A stretch of DNA of 64,000 bases from Cardiobacteriaceae bacterium (GTDB lineage Bacteria; Pseudomonadota; Gammaproteobacteria; Cardiobacteriales; Cardiobacteriaceae), in the NCBI GenBank assembly GCA_030529365.1, contig JAUMXB010000001.1, positions 248,001 to 312,000 of the forward strand. Direction: 5' to 3'. Shown here piece after piece: positions 20,652-32,503 of this stretch. How positions within the stretch are numbered: position 1 is the stretch's first letter; the number at the start of each line of letters is the position of its first letter. A program made the position numbers and the translations under genes. Under the pieces are notes generated by a model, which was not told the DNA's origin, made no database searches, and saw only the letters and a program-made list of their open reading frames with translations.

Positions 20652-22400
20652 ATGAGCCAAGCTGCCCGCCAAGTCGTCGCCGATTATTTCCTGCGTCTGG
20701 CGAGCATGCTTTTTCCCATGCGTCACTGGTTGCCGCAAGTCACGCCCGCCACTGTGCGCGCCGATTTCTGGGCGGGGCTAACCGGCGCGGTGATGGTATT
20801 GCCGCAGGGCATCGCCTTTGCCCTCATTGCCGGACTGCCGCCGGAATTCGGCCTTTACAGCGCCATCGTCGTGCAGCTGCTGGCCGGCCTTTTCGGCTCC
20901 AGCTGGCACATGGTCTCGGGGCCGACCGTGGCGCTCTCCATCGTCATCCCCGGCATCATCGCGCCCTACGCCGTGCCCGGCAGCCCGCAATACATCGGCC
21001 TCTCGCTCACCGTGATGATGATGGTCGGCATCATCCAGCTCTCCTTCGGCCTCTTTCGCTTGGGCAGCCTCGTCAATTTCATCTCGCACACCGTCATCAT
21101 CGGCTTTACTGCTGGCGCCGGCTTTCTCATCATCATGAGCCAGCTGCCCGCCTTTTTCGGGCACAGCGCCGAACGCGGCCTTTCCCTGTTCGAGCGCTTT
21201 TCCGCCATCAGCGAGATGGCGATGAGCCCGCACTGGCCGTCGCTTGCCGTCGCCCTCGTAACTTTGGCCGTCGCCATTGCCGTGCGCCGCATTCGCCCGC
21301 GCGCCCCGCATATGCTGCTCGGCATGATTAGCGGCACGCTTTTCGGCCTGGCGATTGGCGCGTCGGACAAAGGCGTGGCCATGCTCGGCGCGCTTCCGAG
21401 CGCGCTGCCGCAATTTACCCTGCCCGATATGCCCTTCCAGACGCTCACCAATCTGCTGCCGTCGGCTTTCGCGCTGGCCTTGCTCGGCCTGATCGAAGCG
21501 GTATCGATTGCGCGCTCCATCGCCATTCGTTCGCACCAGCGCATTGACGGCAATCAGGAATTTTTCGGGCAAGGGCTGTCAAATATTGTCGGCAGCTGCT
21601 GCTCGTGCTACGTGGGCTCAGGTTCGTTCAACCGCAGCGCTATCAATTACGACAGCGGCGCGAAAACGCCGATCGCGCTGGTCTTTACATCGGCCATTAT
21701 CGCCGTGGTGCTTGTCTTTTTCCCCTGGCTCACCCGCGAGCTGCCCCTGCCCGCGATGGCGGCCACCATCCTGCTTGCCGGTTACAATCTTTTCGATTTC
21801 AGGCATATCCGCCTGATCGCCCGCACCAGCCGCAACGAGCTTTCCATCATTCTCGTCACCTTTATTTCCACCCTTTTCATCAACCTCGAATTCGCCATTT
21901 ACGCCGGCGTGATTCTCTCGCTAGTGCTCTATCTGCAGAAAACTTCGCATCCCATGGTTACCGAAGTCGATTTCAGCGAGCTGATCAATATGCCGGATGC
22001 CGCGCCCGTGCCCATTCACGTCATCCGCCTCGACGGCTCGCTCTTTTTCGGCGCGGTCGATCACGTGCAAAACCGCTTGGCTGCCATTGGCCGCAACCGG
22101 CAATGGCGGCATCTGGTCATTCTTGCCGAAGGCGTCAATATCATCGACGTCGCCGGCATCGAAATGCTGCTCTCGCAAAAGCTGCGCCTGCAAAAAACCG
22201 GCGGCGACCTTTATCTCATCGGCGTCAAGCCGCATTTGCGCCGCAAACTGGCGAAAAGCCCGTATTGGCAGCGTCTTGATGGCGACAATACCCTGTTCGA
22301 CAGCACCTACGTTGCCTTCCGCACCATCCTGCGCTCGCTCAATATCAGCAACTACCGCGCCTATATGAAGCATTTGTTCAGGGATTATCAGAAGCTGTAA
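20652..22400 (+). CDS. SulP family inorganic anion transporter with STAS domain
   Basis: A 582-residue membrane protein of the SLC26/SulP family. About 10-12 hydrophobic segments contain family motifs: LTGAVMVLPQGIAFALIAGL near residue 45, a GPTVAL motif, and a conserved GSFNRSAINYDSG region. A C-terminal cytoplasmic STAS domain spans about residues 440-565 (VHVIRLDGSLFFGAVD, LAEGVNIIDVAGIEML). SulP proteins carry sulfate, bicarbonate or dicarboxylates; the substrate cannot be told from sequence. AAGGA lies before the ATG. Repeats flank both ends. Confidence 0.92.
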   Translation: MSQAARQVVADYFLRLASMLFPMRHWLPQVTPATVRADFWAGLTGAVMVLPQGIAFALIAGLPPEFGLYSAIVVQLLAGLFGSSWHMVSGPTVALSIVIPGIIAPYAVPGSPQYIGLSLTVMMMVGIIQLSFGLFRLGSLVNFISHTVIIGFTAGAGFLIIMSQLPAFFGHSAERGLSLFERFSAISEMAMSPHWPSLAVALVTLAVAIAVRRIRPRAPHMLLGMISGTLFGLAIGASDKGVAMLGALPSALPQFTLPDMPFQTLTNLLPSAFALALLGLIEAVSIARSIAIRSHQRIDGNQEFFGQGLSNIVGSCCSCYVGSGSFNRSAINYDSGAKTPIALVFTSAIIAVVLVFFPWLTRELPLPAMAATILLAGYNLFDFRHIRLIARTSRNELSIILVTFISTLFINLEFAIYAGVILSLVLYLQKTSHPMVTEVDFSELINMPDAAPVPIHVIRLDGSLFFGAVDHVQNRLAAIGRNRQWRHLVILAEGVNIIDVAGIEMLLSQKLRLQKTGGDLYLIGVKPHLRRKLAKSPYWQRLDGDNTLFDSTYVAFRTILRSLNISNYRAYMKHLFRDYQKL

Positions 22401-22457
22401 AATAGTGTTTTTTTACCATCATGAAGCGCTTGTCGCGGTAAAAAATCACTATTTTTT
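22401..22457. repeat. AAGCGCTT modular palindromic element, one core (locus E)
   Basis: The clearest single-core copy: core 22424-22431 inside a near-perfect inverted repeat of about 17 bp (AATAGTGTTTTTTTACC on the left, GGTAAAAAATCACTATT on the right). Starts 1 nt after the SulP stop, in a convergent gap. The right arm ends in six T. Confidence 0.92.
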
Positions 22458-22465
22458 CGTAAGAT

Positions 22466-23173
22466 TTATCCCACCAGCAAGCCCCAAAAATACTGGAGCG
22501 CGAACACGAAAGGATGAATCAGCGTTTGCCAGAACGGCATCTGCGTTTCCTGCGTCACCAGAAAGGGAATCACGATCATCCGCGCCAGCAAGTAATACAC
22601 GGCGATCACCAGCACCACGAACACCGTTTTCTTCAGCACATAGTCGGCAATCAGCGCCGTGGCGTTCACCGCGCTTTCGCGCGCAATGCGCTCGGCAATG
22701 TCGGCAGCGGTTTTCTGCCCGAAAAGCCAGTGCCAGACGTTGTCGGTGCGGCTTTCCGCCTCGCTCAGCGCCACGGCATAGACGCGCTGGAAGATTTCGT
22801 TTTCCACGAATTTCTTCACGTCGAAACCGTGGCTGCGGTAAATGGTGTGGCAGGTTCTCAGCGTTTTCAGCATGTTGTAGGTGCCCTGCACGATGGACAG
22901 CAGATAAACGCTGGCAATGGCAAGCAGCGCATGTTCGCGCGCGAGCCACAGCGGCAGCAGCAGTACCGCAGCCATGACCAGGGCGCTGTTGACGCTGAGA
23001 TTGATGACGGCAGCGCGCAGGTGATGGTTGATCAGCCGCTTGAGTTCGCTTTCCGCTTCGCGGGTGCCGTCGATAATGCCCTGGGCAATGGCGGCATCTT
23101 CCTTTTCCGCCGCCAGCGAATTGCCGAAGCGCTTGGCCGCGAGTACGGCAACGGGAATGATGAACTGGATCAT
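22466..23173 (-). CDS. Uncharacterised integral membrane protein
   Basis: A 235-residue protein I do not recognise. An N-terminal hydrophobic start (MIQFIIPVAVLAAKRFG) and a charged helix precede two adjacent membrane segments (about residues 55-95). A cytoplasmic-type region with many R, E and D follows (YRSHGFDVKKFVENEIFQRV). Two more membrane segments lie near the C-terminus (about 180-235). It starts 48 nt after the amidase stop on the same strand, so an envelope-related role with that amidase is possible but only contextual. Confidence 0.7.
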   Translation of the reverse strand: MIQFIIPVAVLAAKRFGNSLAAEKEDAAIAQGIIDGTREAESELKRLINHHLRAAVINLSVNSALVMAAVLLLPLWLAREHALLAIASVYLLSIVQGTYNMLKTLRTCHTIYRSHGFDVKKFVENEIFQRVYAVALSEAESRTDNVWHWLFGQKTAADIAERIARESAVNATALIADYVLKKTVFVVLVIAVYYLLARMIVIPFLVTQETQMPFWQTLIHPFVFALQYFWGLLVG

Positions 23174-23221
23174 GGCGTTATCCGGCAGGCTGGGGAAGAT
23201 CGGCGGCGGTGCGCGGTTGCG

Positions 23222-24679
23222 CTATTTGCCGAGCAGCATGTGCTGCGGCAAATGCTCGCGGAAATAGCTTTCGATGCCGCTCGCGATGCCGCGCGCGATT
23301 TTGTCCTGATGCGCGGGTGAAGCGAGCAGGCGCGCGTCTTCCGGGTTGGAAATAAAGGCGGTTTCCACGAGCAGCGACGGGATTTCCGGCGAACGCAGCA
23401 CCACGAAGTTGGCGCGCTCCACGCTGCGCTTGTGGGTATGCCCCACTTTCGCCAGCTCGCGGATGGTATGGCGGCCGAACACGTTGCTGGATTCCAAAGT
23501 GGCATCGAGCTGGATATCGAGCAGCGCTTCCTGGATGTCGTTATCGTATTTGCTCACGTCCACGCCCCATTTGAGGTCAACCGCGTTTTCGCGCTTGGCG
23601 AGGTAGCGCGCGAGCTGCGAGGAAGCGCCCTTGGTGGAAAGCATATAGACGGAGGAACCACGCGGCCCTTCGCCTTCCACGGCATCGGCGTGAATGGAAA
23701 CGAAAAGATCGGCCTTGTTGCGCCGCGCAATCGCGGTGCGCTCGCGCAGGGGAACGAACACGTCGCGATCGCGGGTGAGAATGGCGCGGTAGCCCGGCTT
23801 GGCGTCAAGCAGGCGCTTCAGGCGCTGGGAAATGGCAAGCACCGCCATCTTTTCCTGCAAGCCGGTAGCGCGGCTGATTGCCCCCGGATCCTTGCCGCCA
23901 TGGCCAGGATCGATAACCACGATGATGTTTTTCTTGCTGGCGCCCACCGGCGGCGCGACCGGCACCTGCTTCTGCACCTTGCCGGAAGCGGAAATATTGC
24001 GCTCCACCATGAGCGCGGACGGTGGCTGCACCTGCACCGGCGGCACTACTACGGCCACATCCGCCGATGGCGGTTGCGGATTCACCACGGGCGGCACCGG
24101 CGTTTGCGCCACAGGCGGCGCAGCGATATTCACGCTTGCCGCGCCCGCATTGGCGTTTCGCGTCGGTGCGGGCGACGGCGTCTTGCCGGCAATCATGTCG
24201 TTCAGCTGCTGCCGCGTATCGAGCGGCCCGCCAGCGAAGACCACGAACGGCACCTGCGCCTCATCCAGCGACGAAAGCGTGAGCGCCGGATCATAGCTGC
24301 GGTCGTACACGTCCACCACGATGCGGTTGCCACGGCGGCCTTCCGGCTTCAGCGTATAAATATTGGCTTTCACCACATCATTGAGATCGATCACCACGCG
24401 CAGCATGTCCTGGCTGCGGAAGCCGCTGCGCACCGAATCGACCGGCCCATCGTTCAACACCAGCCCGGCCCGCCCTTCGCGACGGGCATCGGGAATATCG
24501 AGCACGATGCGCGGTGGATCCGGCAGACTGAATTGCTGGAAGACTGTCGGCGCATCAAGATCGAGCACGATTTGCACCTTGTCCGGCAGACGGTTGGCAC
24601 GAATCCCTTCCACCACCACGGCAGCTTGGGCCCATACGGCGAGAAAAACCAGGCTCACTGCCAGGCAGAAGCGTTTCAT
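23222..24679 (-). CDS. N-acetylmuramoyl-L-alanine amidase (AMIN + Amidase_3), AmiB/AmiC-like
   Basis: Periplasmic cell-wall hydrolase that cuts the peptide stem from MurNAc during septum splitting. From the ATG at 24679 the protein is 485 residues; the upstream frame extension lacks a signal peptide and is discarded. Parts in order: signal peptide (cleavage after AQA), AMIN targeting domain (about 20-130), a long Pro/Val/Ala linker (about 180-250), and the Zn amidase domain with VVIDPGHGGKDPGA, SIHADA and VETAFISNPED. There is no LysM domain, which separates it from E. coli AmiB-like paralogues with LysM in related species. Confidence 0.92.
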   Translation of the reverse strand: MKRFCLAVSLVFLAVWAQAAVVVEGIRANRLPDKVQIVLDLDAPTVFQQFSLPDPPRIVLDIPDARREGRAGLVLNDGPVDSVRSGFRSQDMLRVVIDLNDVVKANIYTLKPEGRRGNRIVVDVYDRSYDPALTLSSLDEAQVPFVVFAGGPLDTRQQLNDMIAGKTPSPAPTRNANAGAASVNIAAPPVAQTPVPPVVNPQPPSADVAVVVPPVQVQPPSALMVERNISASGKVQKQVPVAPPVGASKKNIIVVIDPGHGGKDPGAISRATGLQEKMAVLAISQRLKRLLDAKPGYRAILTRDRDVFVPLRERTAIARRNKADLFVSIHADAVEGEGPRGSSVYMLSTKGASSQLARYLAKRENAVDLKWGVDVSKYDNDIQEALLDIQLDATLESSNVFGRHTIRELAKVGHTHKRSVERANFVVLRSPEIPSLLVETAFISNPEDARLLASPAHQDKIARGIASGIESYFREHLPQHMLLGK

Positions 24680-24987
24680 GAAATTCCTTATGTCCTGATG
24701 CTCACAAACGCCGCGTATTATGCCAATTCCCCGGAAAGGCAACAAACCGCCGCGCAACATGCTTCGCTCAAGTCGAAATGAGAAATTTTCTCACGATAAG
24801 CGCTTATTGATGAGAAATAATTACTATATCAAGCGCTTTATATAGTGATTTTTTATCGCAAAAAGCGCTTATTAACGAGAAATTTTCCCATTTTGATACA
24901 GGATTACCACGATGTATGAATATCCTGCAACATGCCCGGATGGCCACGAGCCATCCACCCCTTCCCGCGCCATCTCGCCGGAAATCA
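24680..24987. other. 308-bp intergenic region upstream of the amidase
   Basis: Holds the three-core palindromic element (24779-24890) and about 95 bp of ordinary sequence on each side. A possible 28-codon ORF starts at 24912 (GGA upstream) and overlaps the rarA end; nothing supports its being a gene. Confidence 0.6.
24779..24890. repeat. AAGCGCTT modular palindromic element, three cores (locus F)
   Basis: The longest copy in the window: cores at 24798-24805, 24831-24838 and 24863-24870 (spacings 33 and 32). It mixes both AT modules: GAGAAATTTTCTC at the outer ends and TATAGTGATTTTTTATC inside. Confidence 0.9.
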
Positions 24988-26298
24988 TCACTTTTTGACG
25001 GCGCTTTTCTCCGCTTCCGCGTCCAGCGCGCGCAGATAGTCGAGCTTGTCGGCGAGCTTGATTTCAAAGCCGCGCCGGTTCGGCTCGTAAAAACGCACGT
25101 CCGCCATCGCGTCCGGCAGATAGGTTTGCCCGGCGGCATAGGCGTTTTCCTCATGGTGCGCATAACGATAGCCCTTGCCATAGCCCGCTTCGCGGTGCGT
25201 TTTGGTCGGCGCGTTGCGCAAATGCAGGGGCACGGGATGCGCGGGATGCTCGCGCACATAGGCAAAGGCGGCTTTCATCGCGAGATAGCTCGCGTTGCTT
25301 TTTGGCGCCAGCGCGAGATAGGTGACGGCCTGCGCGAGCGCGAGATGCCCTTCCGGGCTGCCGAGGCGTTCGTAGGTCTGGTAGGCGTTGAGCGCGAGAT
25401 TGAGTGCGTTGGGATCGGCATTGCCGATATCTTCGCTTGCCACGCACAACATGCGCCGCGCGATGGTGAGCGGATCGGCGCCGCCTTCGACCATGCGCGC
25501 AAACCAGTACATGGCACCATCGGGATTGGAGCCGCGCAGCGATTTGTGAAAGGCGGAAAGCATTTCGTAGAACCAGTCGCCCTGCTTGTCGAGCGCTTTC
25601 GGCTGGTCGGCAAGCGCTTGCGCGAGCGCGTCGTCGGCATCCATGTCCGAGGCGACGAGCAAATGCCATTCTTCCAGCCAGTTGAGCGCCTTGCGAATGT
25701 CGCCTGCGGCATGCCAGGCGAGCGTTTGCAGCCCGGGATGTTCGCGCAGGGCGCTGTCGCCAAGAATGTCCAGCCCTTTGTTGAGGCGCGCCACGATGTC
25801 TTCCGCTTCCACGGCATGCAGCTGCAAGACACGCAGGCGCGAGAGCAGCGCGTTGTTGACATGAAAAGAGGGATTTTCCGTGGTGGCGCCGATGAGGATG
25901 ATGGTGCCGTCTTCCACAAAAGGCAGGAAAGCGTCCTGCTGCGCCTTGTTGAAACGGTGGATTTCGTCGATAAAGAGAATGGTGCGGCGGCCGAGGCTGC
26001 GCGCACGCTGCGCCTCATCGACGGCGGCACGCACGTCTTTCACGCCGGAAAAAACGGCGGAAAGGCGCACGAATTCGGCATCAAAGGCATGGGCGAGGAG
26101 AAGGGCGAGTGTGGTCTTGCCGCAACCGGGCGGCCCCCAAAGCAGCATGGAAAAGGGTTTGCCCTGGGCAATGGCGGCAGCGAGCGGCGTGCCCTCGCCC
26201 AGGATATGGCGCTGGCCGACGTAATCGGCGAGCGTTTGCGGGCGCATGCGCTCGGCAAGCGGCGGATCGGTGCGCGAGAACAGTCCTTCCTGTTGCAT
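24988..26298 (-). CDS. rarA: Replication-associated recombination protein RarA
   Basis: AAA+ ATPase (also MgsA) acting at stalled replication forks. The core reads PLAERMRPQTLADYVGQ, Walker A GPPGCGKTT, Walker B LFIDEIHRFNK, GATTENPS and the C-terminal tetramerisation region RNAPTKTHREAGYGKGYRYA. I choose the ATG at 26298 (436 residues, AAAGG about 8 nt upstream); an ATG at 26313 would add five residues. In many proteobacteria it follows ftsK and lolA; here a MarR cassette interrupts that order. Confidence 0.94.
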   Translation of the reverse strand: MQQEGLFSRTDPPLAERMRPQTLADYVGQRHILGEGTPLAAAIAQGKPFSMLLWGPPGCGKTTLALLLAHAFDAEFVRLSAVFSGVKDVRAAVDEAQRARSLGRRTILFIDEIHRFNKAQQDAFLPFVEDGTIILIGATTENPSFHVNNALLSRLRVLQLHAVEAEDIVARLNKGLDILGDSALREHPGLQTLAWHAAGDIRKALNWLEEWHLLVASDMDADDALAQALADQPKALDKQGDWFYEMLSAFHKSLRGSNPDGAMYWFARMVEGGADPLTIARRMLCVASEDIGNADPNALNLALNAYQTYERLGSPEGHLALAQAVTYLALAPKSNASYLAMKAAFAYVREHPAHPVPLHLRNAPTKTHREAGYGKGYRYAHHEENAYAAGQTYLPDAMADVRFYEPNRRGFEIKLADKLDYLRALDAEAEKSAVKK

Positions 26299-26352
26299 TT
26301 TATGGCCTTTCATCAATTTGTTGCTGTCATGAAGTATTTTATGCGCCTGCTC

Positions 26353-26817
26353 TTATTCTGCCATGGCGATACCCCGCAGTTCACGCTGCGCGGCAATCAC
26401 TTTGCGCATCAAAGCGAGCAACTGCGTCTTTTCCGCCGCATCCAGTCCTGCAAGCGCATCAGCGTTGACTGTGCGGGCAATCGCGGTTGCCTGCGCTTCA
26501 AGCGCACGCGCCTTGTCGGTGAGCACAATGCACTTGCTGCGCGCATCCAAAGGATGCGATTCGCGCCTGACCAGTCCGTCGCGCTCCATGCGGATCAAGG
26601 TATTTGCCACAGTGGCCTGGGCAATGTCGCCGGATGCGATCAGTTCGTTCTGGGTAAGCCCGTCCTGACGCCACAGTTCCAGCAAAATGGCAAAGGGGGC
26701 AGGTGCCAACCCCAAAGGCTTCAAGCGCTCGCTGAGCAATGCGGCAAAAAGCCGCGCCATATGATTGGCAAGATAGCCAGCAGATTCTTCTTTCAACAGT
26801 GTTTTTTCCATATTCAT
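26353..26817 (-). CDS. MarR family transcriptional regulator
   Basis: A 154-residue winged-helix repressor. The DNA-binding part is recognisable as LTQNELIASGDIAQATVANTLIRMERDGLVRRESHPLD in overlapping segments (about residues 52-90): a recognition helix followed by the wing with the conserved Asp-Ala-Arg (DARSKCIVLT). Helices at both ends would form the dimer. The gene is divergent from a two-gene cassette, and two tandem palindromes lie in the 80-bp gap. Autoregulation and control of the cassette by a small ligand are the natural inference. Confidence 0.9.
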   Translation of the reverse strand: MNMEKTLLKEESAGYLANHMARLFAALLSERLKPLGLAPAPFAILLELWRQDGLTQNELIASGDIAQATVANTLIRMERDGLVRRESHPLDARSKCIVLTDKARALEAQATAIARTVNADALAGLDAAEKTQLLALMRKVIAAQRELRGIAMAE

Positions 26818-26831
26818 TATCCGCCCTAAAA

Positions 26832-26868
26832 TATAGCTTGCTATAAAATCTAAAATATAGCACGCTAT
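26832..26868. promoter_or_regulatory. Tandem palindromic operator for the MarR regulator
   Basis: Two related palindromes, TATAGCTTGCTATA (26832-26845) and ATAGCACGCTAT (26857-26868), have centres 24 bp apart, just over two helical turns. They lie 15 nt from the MarR start codon and 30 nt from the cassette ATG. Placement and symmetry fit binding of two MarR dimers on one DNA face. Confidence 0.8.
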
Positions 26869-26897
26869 TGAATGTAATATTCCCGGGAGAAACTCGC

Positions 26898-27269
26898 ATG
26901 ATACGTAAAAAAGTCTTCGTTTTTTTCACTACGTTGACGCTTGCCGCGTGCAACGGCACCATCAATGAGGATAACGTTATTCTGATCAATGCGTTCCATG
27001 TCTCTCCAGGGCAGGAAGAAGCCGCGCTTGCTGCGTGGCGCAAGGCGCGCGATTTTCTGAAAGACCAGCCCGGCTATCTCGACACCCGCCTGCATCAGAA
27101 TATCGATCGCCAGGGTGAATTTTATTTCGTCAATGTCGCACGTTGGCGCAGCGCCGCCGATTTTCACGCGGCCGTCGCACGCATGCGCACTGCCTTGCCG
27201 GATAATCGTGTACCGGGTGTCAGTGCCCATCCCGGACTTTTCCGCATGATACCGGAAGAGAGCCAATGA
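26898..27269 (+). CDS. Antibiotic-biosynthesis-monooxygenase (ABM)-like lipoprotein
   Basis: A 123-residue protein from the ATG at 26898 (GGGAGA upstream); an earlier frame opening lies in the operator. It has a lipoprotein signal with lipobox LAAC, then a single ABM-type ferredoxin-like domain: ILINAFHVSPGQEEAALAAW, YLDTRLHQNI and FYFVNVARWRSAADFHAAV. ABM folds act as small oxygenases, heme-degrading enzymes or ligand binders, usually in the cytoplasm, so an envelope-anchored version is unusual. It is controlled by the adjacent MarR operator, pointing to response to an aromatic or oxidising compound (inference). Confidence 0.75.
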   Translation: MIRKKVFVFFTTLTLAACNGTINEDNVILINAFHVSPGQEEAALAAWRKARDFLKDQPGYLDTRLHQNIDRQGEFYFVNVARWRSAADFHAAVARMRTALPDNRVPGVSAHPGLFRMIPEESQ

Positions 27270-27613
27270 CAGCGCTGATATATGCCAACAGTTTGCTGGC
27301 ATTGGCCAGTATGGCAGCAGCCCTTCTCGCCTGCTGGCGTCCGCAATGGATGAGCCGTTCGGCTGCGGCAAGCGATGGCGAGCGATTCTATGCACGTATG
27401 TATGCGTCGCGTGCACTGCCTGCCGGGCTGCTGACCTTGGTTGTGCCGTGGTATGGGCAAGGCGGTCTAGTCGCGGCCGTACTGTTGAGCGCCGCTGCGA
27501 TGCAGATTGGCGATGCGCTCATTGGCTGGCAAAAACGGGAATGGGGGATGGTGGGTTTTCCTTTAGCCGCTGCTGCCATACATGTCGCAACATCCCTGGC
27601 TTTTCTGCCATGA
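27266..27613 (+). CDS. Small four-helix membrane protein (DUF4267-like)
   Basis: A 115-residue hydrophobic protein starting at an ATGA overlap with the ABM lipoprotein. About four membrane segments (near residues 4-24, 50-68, 70-87 and 96-113) with short polar loops recall the DUF4267 group, though I am not certain. The Arg/Tyr-rich loop ERFYARMYASRALPAG is the most distinctive stretch. Its stop abuts the lolA terminator hairpin. Function unknown; co-regulation by the MarR protein is expected. Confidence 0.65.
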   Translation: MTALIYANSLLALASMAAALLACWRPQWMSRSAAASDGERFYARMYASRALPAGLLTLVVPWYGQGGLVAAVLLSAAAMQIGDALIGWQKREWGMVGFPLAAAAIHVATSLAFLP

Positions 27614-27647
27614 AAAAGCGCCTTGTCGGACAGTCCGACAAGGCGCT
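27613..27647 (-). terminator. Rho-independent terminator of lolA (reads on minus strand)
   Basis: Perfect 15-bp inverted repeat, AGCGCCTTGTCGGAC with one central base, followed on the minus strand by five T. It lies 20 nt downstream of the lolA stop. On the plus strand it directly follows the small membrane-protein gene but lacks a T run, so it mainly serves lolA. Confidence 0.88.
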
Positions 27648-27666
27648 GGCAAGCGGAGGGCAGCGT

Positions 27667-28470
27667 TTAAAGCTCGCCGATCACGTCCACGCCGGGCGGC
27701 GGCGTGAATTTGAATTTGCTGGCAGGCACGCCGGCGTTGCGCTTCAAACTATTGAAGCGAATGATGGTTTGCTGCGCACCGCCATCGACCATCACGGCGG
27801 CGAGGTTGTCATTGTTCATGACTACCCAGACGGCATCGTATTCGTTCTGCGCTTTTTTCGGGCGCAGCTGATAGACGGTGCCGCCCGCGCCGACCAGCCC
27901 TTGCAGGCGCGCAGGCGCCTTGTTGCGCACGATGGTGGAGATATTGAACTTGTCGCCGAGATTGGGGTTGCCGTTCAGGAGTTCCATGGCCACGTCGCCA
28001 ACCAGTTCGTCGCGGCTTCTCACCGCGATTTGCTCGAGATCCACGTCGTAATGGATGACTTTCTTGCCGTCGGAGACGATTACCTGCTGGCTCGGCGTCT
28101 GGTAGTCCCAATAAAATTTGCCGGGTTTCGCCATCCACATCTGGCCGGTGGTTTTCTGTTCGCCACGGTTGCCGTAAACGGTTTGCGTGAACGCGCCCTG
28201 CATGTCGCGGGTGTCGAGGAGATAACGGGTGAGCGCGTTGTCGTGCGCGCCGGAAAGGGTCACTTTGTCCGCATTGGGCGCTGCCGCTTTTTCCGGCATG
28301 GGCGCAACCTCGATTTGCAGGGGCTGGCTTTGCTGCGGCGCGGGCTGGATTTGCACGCCTTCCGCGGGCTTTTGTTCATCGTCGGCGGCCGTTTTGTTGA
28401 AAAGCTGGGCATGGGCGGTGGCGCTGCCCGCCAAGGCGATGAGGGCAAGGGTTTGTAAAGTCTGGCGCAT
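27667..28470 (-). CDS. lolA: Outer-membrane lipoprotein carrier protein LolA
   Basis: Periplasmic chaperone ferrying lipoproteins from LolCDE to LolB. After a signal peptide (cleavage near AHA-QL) comes an unusual extension of about 45 residues rich in Q, P, A and E. The LolA domain then starts near residue 68 (LTRYLLDTRDMQGAFTQTVY, GQMWMAKPGKFYWDY, PPPGVDVIGEL). The total of 267 residues is longer than E. coli LolA, the excess being this linker. The gene lies downstream of ftsK, as in many gammaproteobacteria, with a two-core repeat between. Confidence 0.92.
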   Translation of the reverse strand: MRQTLQTLALIALAGSATAHAQLFNKTAADDEQKPAEGVQIQPAPQQSQPLQIEVAPMPEKAAAPNADKVTLSGAHDNALTRYLLDTRDMQGAFTQTVYGNRGEQKTTGQMWMAKPGKFYWDYQTPSQQVIVSDGKKVIHYDVDLEQIAVRSRDELVGDVAMELLNGNPNLGDKFNISTIVRNKAPARLQGLVGAGGTVYQLRPKKAQNEYDAVWVVMNNDNLAAVMVDGGAQQTIIRFNSLKRNAGVPASKFKFTPPPGVDVIGEL

Positions 28471-28559
28471 GGCGGTTCCTTGTCTGCGGATAAAAAAGAG
28501 CGCTTAAGGTAGCACGGCTGCGGGCAGGACGCGCTACCATCGCTTAATCTTCCATTGAA

Positions 28560-28645
28560 TGAGAAATTTTCTCACCATCAAGCGCTTATCGTGAGAAAAT
28601 TTCTCATCATAAGCGCTTGATGGTGGTAAAAAATGATTATTTTTA
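28560..28645. repeat. AAGCGCTT modular palindromic element, two cores (locus G)
   Basis: Cores at 28580-28587 and 28611-28618 (31 bp apart), with the three-fold GAGAAA/TTTCTC and TGGTAAAAAATGA pattern. Between ftsK (end) and lolA (start) on the minus strand. Confidence 0.9.
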
Positions 28646-28658
28646 GCTGTTTTATGAT

Positions 28659-31394
28659 TCAGTAATCCTCGTCTCCGCCTTCGCCACGCGGCACCAGCAC
28701 TTTGCGCTGGCCGCGATCAAGGCCGGAGACGATGCCGGCGTATTCCATCGCTTCGATGATGCGCGCCGAGCGGTTGTAGCCGATGCCGAGCTTGCGTTGC
28801 AGCCAGGAAATCGAGGCCTTGCCGTGTTCGACGACGAGCGCGACCGCCTGGTCGTAGAGCGGATCGAGTTCAGGGTCGTCACTGCCGCCGTTGCCGCCGA
28901 ATCCGGCGGCGCTCGCCGGGCTGGTGATGGATTCTTCGTAGTTGGGCTCGCCCTGGCTTTTCAGGAAGGTGGTGAGCGCATCGACTTCATGGTCTTCCAT
29001 GAAGGCGCCATGCACGCGGCGCGGCGCCGAGCTGCCGGGCGGCATGTAGAGCATGTCGCCGCTGCCGAGCAGCGCTTCCGCGCCCTGCTGGTCGATGATG
29101 GTGCGCGAGTCGATTTTGCTCGAAACCTGGAAAGCGATGCGCGTCGGCACGTTGGCCTTGATGAGGCCGGTGATCACGTCCACTGACGGGCGCTGCGTCG
29201 CCAGGATAAGGTGAATGCCGGCGGCGCGCGCTTTCTGGGCGATGCGCGCAATGAGTTCTTCCACGCGCTTGCCCACCACCATCATCATGTCGGCCAGTTC
29301 GTCGATGACGATGACGATATACGGCAATTCCTTGATTTCCGGCGGCTGGTTCGCAAGGCCGATATGGTCTTCGGCGCGCCACAGCGGATCAAATACGTGC
29401 TCGCCGCGCGCTTTCGCCTCGCGCAGCGCGGTGTTGAAGCCGATGATGTTGCGCACGCGCATTGCCGACATCAGCTGGTAGCGCCGCTCCATTTCCTCAA
29501 CCGCCCAGCGCAGCGCGTTTTCCGCATCGTTCATGTCGGTCACGACTGGCGTGAGCAAGTGGGGAATGTCTTCATACATGCTCATTTCCAGCATTTTCGG
29601 ATCGATGAGGATGAGCTTGAGTTCGTCCGGCGTAGTTTTGTACAGCAGGCTTGCGAGCATGACGTTGATGGCAACCGATTTGCCCGAGCCGGTGGTGCCC
29701 GCCACCAGCACGTGCGGCATTTTCGCGAGATTGGCGACCATCGGTTCGCCGGCGATGTCGCGACCGAGCACCACGGTCAGCGGCGCTTTCGATTCGCGGT
29801 AATCGGGCGATTCGAGAATGCTGCGCAAATACACGGTATTGCGCTTGCGGTTGGGAATTTCGAGGCCGACGTAGGGCTTGCCGGGAATGACATCGACCAC
29901 GCGCACGCTCTGCACGGACAGGTTGCGCGCGAGATCCTTGTCCAAATTGGAAATCTGGCTCACCTTGATGCCGGGCGCGAGCTCCAGTTCCAAACGGGTG
30001 ATCACCGGCCCCACTTCGATATTGGCGACTTGCACATCGAGGCGGTAATCGGCAAGCGCGCGCTCGACGCGCGCCGCCATCATGTCGAGCTCTTCGTCGC
30101 TGTAATCGACGATGGCAGGCGGCTCGGTGCGCAACAGCGACAGCGGCGGCAACTGGTAAGCCTCATCACGGCCGCGCGCCGGGAAGTGCGGCGTGGCGAG
30201 CGGCGCGAGCTTGACGCGCATCCCCTGCGCCGAAGCAGCGTTTTCCGCCTCGAACGGCATCAGGTCGCGCTCTGCGGGCGGCTCCTCCTGCTCCAGCATT
30301 TCTTCCAGGAAAGAGGTATCTTCCGGCACGCGCGAGGTATCCACGAAAGCGGGTCTCACCTCATCGCGCGGATCTTCCAGCGAAAACCCGGAAAAATTGA
30401 TGGTCGGCTCGCCCACTTCGGCATCGTCGCGCAGCGGAAAGGCATCAAAACCGGCAAAGGGATCGTTATCAGCGGTTTTCTTGTCACGCGGCGCATCTTC
30501 CAGGCGCGGTTCGCGTTGCGCAAACCAGCTGTTCATGCCGCGGTTGCGCGGCGTCGCCACGGTCTTTTCCGGCGGCACGGCAAGCGGTTCCTCGGGCAAC
30601 GGCAGCGGAGCAGGCGGCGGCGTTGCATCCGCTTCGTCGCGTTCTTCCCTGTAATTCGACCAGCTGAGATCCACGGACGGCTCATTGCGCGGCTGTTCCG
30701 CATCGAGACGCTGGCGCAGCGCCTGACGCCGGTTTTCGCCGCCTGCCGGACTCTCTGCGGCGGGCTGCGCGTCCACTGCCGGTTTTTTCTTGCCATCGAG
30801 TTTGTTGCTGGCCTTGTGGAAAAAGAGCAGCAGCACATTGCCGATTTTCTCCATCACCCACAACCAGTTGATGGCAAAGAGCAAGGTCATCGACAGGAAA
30901 AACACGCCGGTATAAATGCCCATGACGCCCACCATGGGCAGAATTTCCAGCAGCCACATGCTCAGTTTCTGGCCAGCCAGCCCACCGGCGGTAATGGCCA
31001 CGGAATTGACGGCAACCGGCCAATGGATGGAGAGGATGCCGGCGAGTGCAGGCAGCCCGCCCAGCAGGCTGACCAGCTTCCACATCATCATTTCCGCATC
31101 GATCTGCCCGCGCCGCGCGCTTTGCCAGCCGATGGCAAGCAGGCTTACGGGCAGCAGATAGGCGGCATAGCCAAAAAGCGACAGCAGCGCGTCAGCCGCA
31201 TAGGCGCCGGGCGTGCCCAGCCAGTGACGCACCTCTCCCGTGCCCGACGTGCTCCAGCCGGGATCACCCTCGTGATACCCGAGCAGCACAATCAGGATGA
31301 TGGCGGCCAGCGCGACAGAAAGCAGGAACCACAAGTCAGTGATTCCCCGACGCAAATAATACAGCCAGTTGTCGTGTGCAGAATTTCGGTTCAT
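28659..31394 (-). CDS. ftsK: DNA translocase FtsK
   Basis: Septal DNA pump coordinating division with chromosome dimer resolution. From the ATG at 31394 it has 911 residues; a further 30 codons upstream lack sense as an N-terminus. Four membrane segments lie in the first 180 residues. A Pro/Glu-rich linker (about 225-420) precedes the alpha/beta motor, with Walker [10 protein letters not shown], Walker [15 protein letters not shown] and [14 protein letters not shown]-terminal gamma winged-helix ([19 protein letters not shown]) reads KOPS. The acidic tail ends GGDEDY. Shorter than E. coli FtsK because the linker is short. Confidence 0.96.
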
Positions 31395-31543
31395 TCCTGT
31401 TCCTTGCCCTGTGGCCGCCCATGGCGGCGGGCCCGTCCGGTCAAAAAAGGGGCTTATTGTAAAAAAATTATCGTGCCATTGCACTCATGCAGGAACATGG
31501 GAGGAGAATGGCAAACGGATACGGCCGTTTTTCCCGACGGCCA

Positions 31544-32503
31544 TCAGCCGCGACGCGCGCGAATCATCACCCTTTGTGGCGGCGGCAGGCCTTCGATGGT
31601 GCGGGAAAAATCGGCCTGCATGAAATCCCTGAGCGACTGCCTGTCCATCCAGGCGGTGGCGCGCTGTTCTTCCGCCGTGGTGGCGACGACCGGCCCGGCC
31701 ACCATGTCCACAAAGCCGAGACGCGCAAGCCAGCCGCAAAGCGCTGCCACGCTGGGCAAAAACCACACGTTGCGCATGCCCGCATAGCGGTCGCGCGGCA
31801 TGAGAACCGTTTGTTCATCGCCGTCCACAACCAGCGTTTCCAGCAGCAGCGTACCGCCCGGCAGCAAGGTATCGCGCAGCTGCGCAAGATGGCCGACGGG
31901 ATCACGGCGATGGTAGAGCACGCCCATGGAAAGCGTGAGATCGAATCCGCCGAGCGGCAACGCATCGAGCGTGGTCGGCAGATACACCGCGCCCGTTTCG
32001 CCGGCCATTTTCGCCACGGCCAGATACTGGGCGAAACAATGCCAGGAAGGATCCACGCCCACGGCGAGCTTCGCGCCCTCGCCCAACATGCGGTAAAGAA
32101 AATAGCCGTTGCCGCTGCCCACATCGAGAATATGCCGACCGGCAAAATCCAGCCCCATGTCGAGCAGGCGCGCAAACTTCATGTCGCTGCGCCATTCGCT
32201 GTCGATTGCCACGCCATGCAGGGCAAACGGCCCCTTGCGCCACGGCATCAGCGCCTTGAGTCCGTCAGCCAGCGCCTCGCGCTCAGCATCCGCCATTTCT
32301 CCGCAAACGCTGACGACGCGCTGCGCAAAATCCTGCCGCCCTGCCCTGCCCGGCAGGCTTTCCACCACGGCAAGCCAGTCATCAAAATGGCCATGCCGCG
32401 TCGCATACGAAGTTTCCAGTGCGCCATGCGCGATGTCGTCCAGCGCGTGCAGGCCGGGTTTGTGCGCGCACAGGCGCTGCCATTCGGTAAGCGCCGGATT
32501 CAT
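31544..32503 (-). CDS. cmoB: tRNA U34 carboxymethyltransferase CmoB
   Basis: Transfers the carboxymethyl group from carboxy-SAM to 5-hydroxyuridine at tRNA position 34, giving cmo5U. From the ATG at 32503 it has 319 residues, overlapping the cmoA stop by ATGA; a GTG/TTG-type start 15 nt earlier is unnecessary. The Rossmann methyltransferase motif is ILDVGSGNGYF, with GVDPSW, LGGFDLTLSMGVLYHRRDP and the C-terminal DRYAGMRNVWFLPS. It forms an operon with cmoA, the enzyme making its cofactor. Confidence 0.96.
   Translation of the reverse strand: MNPALTEWQRLCAHKPGLHALDDIAHGALETSYATRHGHFDDWLAVVESLPGRAGRQDFAQRVVSVCGEMADAEREALADGLKALMPWRKGPFALHGVAIDSEWRSDMKFARLLDMGLDFAGRHILDVGSGNGYFLYRMLGEGAKLAVGVDPSWHCFAQYLAVAKMAGETGAVYLPTTLDALPLGGFDLTLSMGVLYHRRDPVGHLAQLRDTLLPGGTLLLETLVVDGDEQTVLMPRDRYAGMRNVWFLPSVAALCGWLARLGFVDMVAGPVVATTAEEQRATAWMDRQSLRDFMQADFSRTIEGLPPPQRVMIRARRG

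Follow-up and report, generated by a model that had tools for sequence, protein, structure and literature searches.

A small gene cassette that lies between lolA and rarA is most likely a MarR-repressed, inducible oxygenase cassette acting at the envelope on phenolic or quinol compounds, a reading that is drawn from sequence and held with moderate confidence. It was analysed within the window (the whole 64-kb stretch of DNA under study, part of a 2.3 Mb genome) and compared with the sole congener searched (G001, same genus, 78% complete). Many ABM proteins are without known function, and for one exported ABM subfamily the gene company, the operator and an invariant site suggest phenol or quinol substrates and an envelope location. 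In many relatives the gene company further suggests cytochrome b561 as the redox partner of the ABM protein. No substrate, inducer or activity was found for any member of this subfamily.

Read along the plus strand, the gene order is rarA (−), marR (−), the operators, the ABM lipoprotein gene (+), the DUF4267-like gene (+), an inverted repeat, lolA (−) and ftsK (−). The divergent MarR gene, ABM lipoprotein gene and membrane protein gene that a preliminary description had placed between lolA and rarA were all recovered as ORFs, and the features are as follows:

24988..26298, minus strand: rarA (mgsA), with the ATG set at 26298 by analogy with the congener (ORF, Pfam)
26353..26817, minus strand: marR, gene of a MarR-family repressor, divergent from the ABM gene (ORF and Pfam)
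26826-26873, unstranded: 24-nt direct repeat enclosing both operators (repeat search)
26832..26845, unstranded: operator 1, TATAGCTTGCTATA, identical in the congener (motif scan)
26856..26869, unstranded: operator 2, TATAGCACGCTATT, 24 bp from operator 1 (motif scan)
26898..27269, plus strand: gene of the ABM-domain lipoprotein, with lipobox LAAC, Cys18 and Asn at +2 (Pfam, alignment, model)
27266..27613, plus strand: gene of a DUF4267-like membrane protein with four helices in the model (ORF, sub-cut-off Pfam match, model)
27617..27647, minus strand: terminator-like perfect inverted repeat of 15 bp, its T-run on the minus strand (repeat/terminator scan)
27667..28470, minus strand: lolA, the other flank of the insertion (ORF, Pfam)

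The ABM and DUF4267-like genes probably form one operon because they share 4 bases at the ABM stop. With its T-run on the minus strand, the inverted repeat would terminate lolA transcription ahead of marR. No promoter stood out in a consensus scan of 26300-28700 (2 promoter-like sites versus 1.4 in shuffles), and no Rfam match over the gathering score was found in 22000-32000.

The membrane protein scored 27.4 bits against DUF4267 (PF14087), for which the cut-off is 27.8. Its model (pLDDT 81, built from 2 sequences) contains four helices and had no PDB match at E ≤ 0.001. When the class was searched with the protein itself, matches were obtained in 2 of 369 genomes (the window's own and one with an internal stop); the Pfam profile matched in 5 of 369 including its own, none over the cut-off, and no DUF4267 relative was found on plasmids. 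A DUF4267 gene was seen beside an ABM gene in 1 of the 53 loci, that of the congener, and in no other genus. DUF4267 is not cytochrome b561, and since neither a redox site was seen in the protein nor a PDB match found, its role as a partner of the ABM protein is proposed from the gene overlap.

The ABM protein and its active site

The window ABM protein belongs to the ABM superfamily (Pfam PF03992, 43.6 bits, cut-off 23.1). Its N-terminus reads MIRKKVFVFFTTLTLAAC|NGT, and that of the congener's protein LLAAC|HQA; the lipobox was read by eye in the former and by a simple rule in the latter. With a signal peptide ending in a lipobox Cys, the window protein is predicted to be a lipoprotein, and Asn at +2 of a lipoprotein falls under the outer-membrane sorting rule.

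Using the single window protein as query, no close relatives were confirmed in genome contigs. A 4-row alignment was used as query to obtain 53 named loci of the subfamily, which is marked by the motifs INPF, GYISTKLH and INVAxWES. By record title these loci are mostly from Proteobacteria and Bacteroidota, and many of the genera are marine. Based upon a simple hydrophobicity and lipobox rule, the ABM protein looks exported in 46 of the 53 loci (28 Sec-type and 18 lipoprotein, with a Cys that could also be a lipobox in two of those called Sec-type, L127 and L136), so export is the norm in this set; the seven relatives without an export signal are a counterpoint to the envelope model. ABM relatives were also found on 15 plasmid records, all at less than 60% identity. 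One of them, on a Phaeobacter gallaeciensis plasmid (L190), lies near an annotated DUF4345 protein, a dienelactone hydrolase and an aromatic hydroxylase, neighbours hinting at aromatic metabolism.

The AlphaFold model of the ABM protein (pLDDT 89) matched 2ril best in the PDB, followed by SnoaB. The former, SL3150 of Shewanella loihica, is annotated as a putative monooxygenase and is the nearest of the solved structures (TM-score of 0.91 on the target at 44% identity). In the profile alignment, Asn18, Asn63 and Trp67 of SnoaB align to N31, N79 and W83 of the window protein (SnoaB residues were counted by hand along the alignment, and the printed 3kng chain runs one residue ahead). These three residues are invariant in 33 of 33 aligned rows, comprising the window, 30 of the 53 loci, G010 and G220. 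In SnoaB they hold the ligand, and the equivalent residues matter in RslO4 by mutagenesis, according to the accessible text of PMC8093152. The window subfamily thus shares with SnoaB, ActVA-Orf6 and RslO4 the ABM fold and the Asn, Asn and Trp of the SnoaB active site. Those proteins belong to Streptomyces polyketide pathways (PMC8093152, accessible text), whereas the window protein carries a lipoprotein signal and a Pfam scan of 8 proteins in its surroundings gave no polyketide family.

Other roles described for ABM proteins are isomerisation by LsrG, haem cleavage and that of ArqI (PMC12274486, in the part accessible). A haem-degrading or haem-binding envelope protein of the IsdG/MhuD/HmuQ type is a doubtful alternative for the window protein. 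The haem-degrading HmuQ is its only NCBIfam match at E ≤ 0.1, but the score of 28.1 bits is far below the family cut-off of 130; similarly, MhuD appears in both the PDB profile and fold searches, but is beaten by SnoaB in the profile search (2.7e-4 at best versus 2.7e-7). Nine residues after the invariant Trp, presumably the position of the haem-ligating His in MhuD, Ala is present in all 33 rows. The match to the SnoaB residues speaks for a cofactor-free oxygenase acting on phenolic compounds rather than for haem cleavage.

Tandem operator and MarR relatives

The tandem operator that had been proposed upstream of the ABM gene is real, with two palindromes that are far above chance and conserved in the congener. 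Allowing one mismatch, TATAGCNNGCTATA has 2 matches in the window, both between marR and the ABM gene, where 0.01 are expected. When window and congener were aligned, 24 of 24 operator columns were identical, versus 34 of the 59 other intergenic columns. The exact core ATAGCNNGCTAT is present in 3 copies in the genome, 2 of them at the cassette. The third copy (C29:78961) was judged to be due to chance; it is a lone site within 1.6 kb that contain no ORF of at least 120 aa, behind an ORF that by eye resembles pnp.

The window MarR protein is a member of the MarR family (Pfam PF01047, 42.2 bits, cut-off 24.6), with 83% identity to the congener's protein and 61% to a copy elsewhere in G004. In a tree of 41 MarR proteins, 13 of the 14 that form the window's clade have an operator (at most one mismatch) no more than 400 bp from their gene, versus 0 of the 27 outside the clade; the clade limit was drawn after the sites were seen and takes in MarR proteins with at least 47% identity, and the loci are mutually related. 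At least 2 sites are present in 11 of the 14 members. The fourteenth (L130) has two MarR genes, and its sites adjoin the other one. The operator is absent at a Sinorhizobium MarR gene (45%, next to the clade on the tree) and a Rhizobium MarR gene (35%). A scan of 40 loci for pairs (at most one mismatch per site, 20-30 bp apart) found them beside MarR in Roseibium, Stappia, Mangrovicoccus, Granulosicoccaceae, Palleronia, Cereibacter and G004. The window cassette has this tandem ATAGCNNGCTAT operator together with a MarR of the clade associated with it.

Across the 53 loci, operator density within 250 bp upstream of ABM genes is 52 times that elsewhere (21 sites in 14,310 bp versus 14 in 494,349 bp). 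At L140 and L159 an operator pair precedes the ABM gene and no MarR gene was found within 4 kb, so the site follows the target gene.

The known regulator closest to the window MarR is SlyA, its best NCBIfam match, and the operator half-site resembles the SlyA box, TTAGCAAGCTAA. The protein is not a SlyA equivalog, scoring 51.9 bits against a cut-off of 120 (NF002926), and the window operator differs from the box in its outer bases and its tandem arrangement. SlyA is inhibited by salicylate (PMC6401476, in the part accessible).

In G004, the MarR orthologue is divergent from a cytochrome b561 gene (L179 3879-4892), with an operator pair 20 bp apart and one mismatch in each site. A nearby ORF there resembles phosphoenolpyruvate carboxylase by eye, and the window ABM protein had no match in this genome at E ≤ 0.001. 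MarR relatives were located on 61 plasmid records, and in the 4 of these that were read no ABM gene is annotated within 4 kb. For two close relatives on alphaproteobacterial plasmids (L186 3443-3910 and L187 3475-3921), the divergent gene encodes a small hydrophobic protein that has no Pfam match, and operator-like sites separate it from the MarR gene; one of these two loci is beside a Tn3 transposase. A phage search with the G004 MarR rather than the window's returned 14 records, all below 60% identity.

Gene company and proposed mechanism

Neighbours of the ABM genes were searched in six frames using profiles built in this analysis (MarR from 8 and b561 from 2 sequences), and given that some contigs end within 4 kb, the counts are lower bounds. 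In 28 of the 53 loci MarR was detected no further than 1.5 kb from the ABM gene, in 6 only at 1.5-4 kb and in 19 not within 4 kb; for cytochrome b561 the corresponding numbers were 22 within 1.5 kb, 1 further off and 30 without. An exported ABM lipoprotein beside MarR had been described as uncommon, which is not borne out in a subfamily where 46 of 53 loci look exported and 28 of 53 have MarR this close.

In four loci (L116, L124, L156 and G220), MarR, ABM and b561 genes stand in a row on one strand. Their MarR proteins fall outside the window's clade and have no operator, so the association of these genes extends beyond loci with the operator. A flavobacterial locus (L119) encodes two further proteins, one of which scores 31.7 bits against Anthrone_oxy (cut-off 27.3), whereas the other, at 30.0 bits, stays below the UbiA cut-off of 34.2. 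Relatives of the first accompany the ABM gene in 7 of the 53 loci and relatives of the second in 8. All 9 Vibrio and Photobacterium loci had neither a MarR match (within 4 kb) nor a b561 match near the ABM gene. There the ABM gene is followed by that of a 233-residue protein with a signal-like start (L108 5363-6064), which was found at 14 of the 53 loci in total; the one scanned had no Pfam match.

The window cassette itself has no cytochrome b561 gene, and the one b561 over the cut-off in the window's genome is on contig C29. From these comparisons, the cassette looks like a local form of a module that recurs elsewhere and is assembled from known families, with DUF4267 standing where relatives have cytochrome b561. 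A described system with some likeness is LcoA-BcnA of Burkholderia, in which a cytochrome b561 and a secreted YceI-type lipocalin serve in peroxidation defence (PMC9113575, in the part accessible). The wider ABM module likewise sets the gene of a membrane cytochrome b561 beside that of an exported small protein, but it has an ABM barrel in place of the lipocalin and a MarR gene alongside, and the window operon is without b561. Unlike in LcoA-BcnA, Pfam found neither b561 nor a YceI-type lipocalin in any of the three cassette proteins. No paper joining antibiotic biosynthesis monooxygenase, MarR and cytochrome b561 was found in the literature, and none mentioning DUF4267; broader searches, for which part of the results was viewed, found nothing on this module.

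A cassette that responds to reactive aldehydes or electrophiles, with an ABM protein that works through a binding partner as ArqI does in Pseudomonas aeruginosa, is unlikely. ArqI, itself an ABM protein, sits in a glyoxal-induced operon, where it binds PqsA and stops quinolone signal production, and the accessible text gives no known ligand for it (PMC12274486). The window cassette has no glyoxalase-like gene, and ArqI is LsrG-like (PMC12274486, accessible text), whereas the window ABM protein has an export signal and the SnoaB residues.

For the preferred reading, an inducible envelope oxygenase, the following mechanism is proposed. Two MarR dimers would bind the tandem palindromes and silence transcription in both directions, until a small aromatic or quinone-like inducer releases MarR in the way that salicylate acts on SlyA. 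The ABM protein would then be exported, lipidated and, given Asn at +2, carried to the outer membrane. In the periplasm its barrel may oxygenate a phenolic or quinol substrate at the Asn-Asn-Trp site with no bound cofactor, and the DUF4267-like protein would be its inner-membrane partner, in place of the cytochrome b561 of many related loci. The earlier suggestion of an aromatic or quinone-like substrate at the envelope is consistent with the active-site conservation and with the gene company (b561, and Anthrone_oxy in some relatives).

Position between lolA and rarA

In order to place the cassette among its relatives, rarA and lolA were looked for in 35 genomes, from species to class level, and the region was read in the family members. 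Direct succession of lolA and rarA (hit-to-hit distance at most 447 bp) was observed in 27 genomes, namely G003, G004, G005, G006, G007, G009 and G010 of the family and 20 outside it. The cassette was present at this place in 2 of the 35, the window's own genome and the congener. In another genus of the family (G011, locus L196), the two genes are separated by an AT-rich gap of about 1.1 kb that contains no ORF of at least 60 aa, and in which the three cassette genes had no tblastn match at 1e-3. In 5 of the 35 (G002, G008, G030; G027, G034), lolA and rarA were on different contigs or without a clear hit. Upstream of lolA, ftsK was present in 10 of the 11 family stretches holding lolA, the exception being that of G010.

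Because the congener has the cassette at the same place and lolA and rarA are direct neighbours in 27 of the 35 genomes, the cassette reads, most simply, as one insertion in the ancestor of this genus. The preliminary claim that it interrupts the lolA-rarA order holds relative to most of the relatives searched, and it survives the synteny check, in which the cassette was not found at this place in all of them. The reverse, an ancestral lolA-cassette-rarA arrangement lost elsewhere in the family, is already disfavoured and very improbable, for although G004 retains the 61%-identical MarR gene beside cytochrome b561 at another place and G011 has its wide gap without ORFs, 7 other genomes of the family and 20 outside it have lolA and rarA as immediate neighbours, and tblastn at 1e-3 found no trace of the three genes in that gap.

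GC content is about 0.51 over 26400-27299 versus about 0.60, which is weak evidence for transfer because the AT-rich intergenic region falls within that interval and GC is 0.60 over 27000-27599. No convincing repeats that could be an insertion scar were found at the cassette borders in the repeat search. The start of rarA is 54 bp behind the marR stop in the window and 8 bp in the congener (L067 4640-4670). Since rarA directly follows marR in both, the insertion may have led to its transcription together with marR from the MarR-controlled promoter. Here a regulated cassette splits a conserved pair of housekeeping genes and may take over the control of rarA.

As a tentative possibility, the cassette may represent a widely spread envelope system, so far undescribed. 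It would consist of an exported, cofactor-free, quinone-forming oxygenase (often lipid-anchored) that trades reducing equivalents with the membrane quinone pool through cytochrome b561, or here the DUF4267-like protein. Its switch in one lineage would be a dedicated MarR clade that has a tandem operator of its own; in this genus, the insertion would have brought rarA under the same MarR promoter.

Separately, the window contains an intergenic-looking repeat family, in which the palindrome GAGAAAATTTCTC, often present twice 32 bp apart, alternates with AAGCGCTT. At most 2 mismatches allowed, 34 matches were counted on both strands versus 1.6 expected. Copies are located at about 8698, 17018, 24780, 28561, 36205, 41577, 48893, 55965 and 63600 of the window, with copies in the rarA-amidase and lolA-ftsK gaps.
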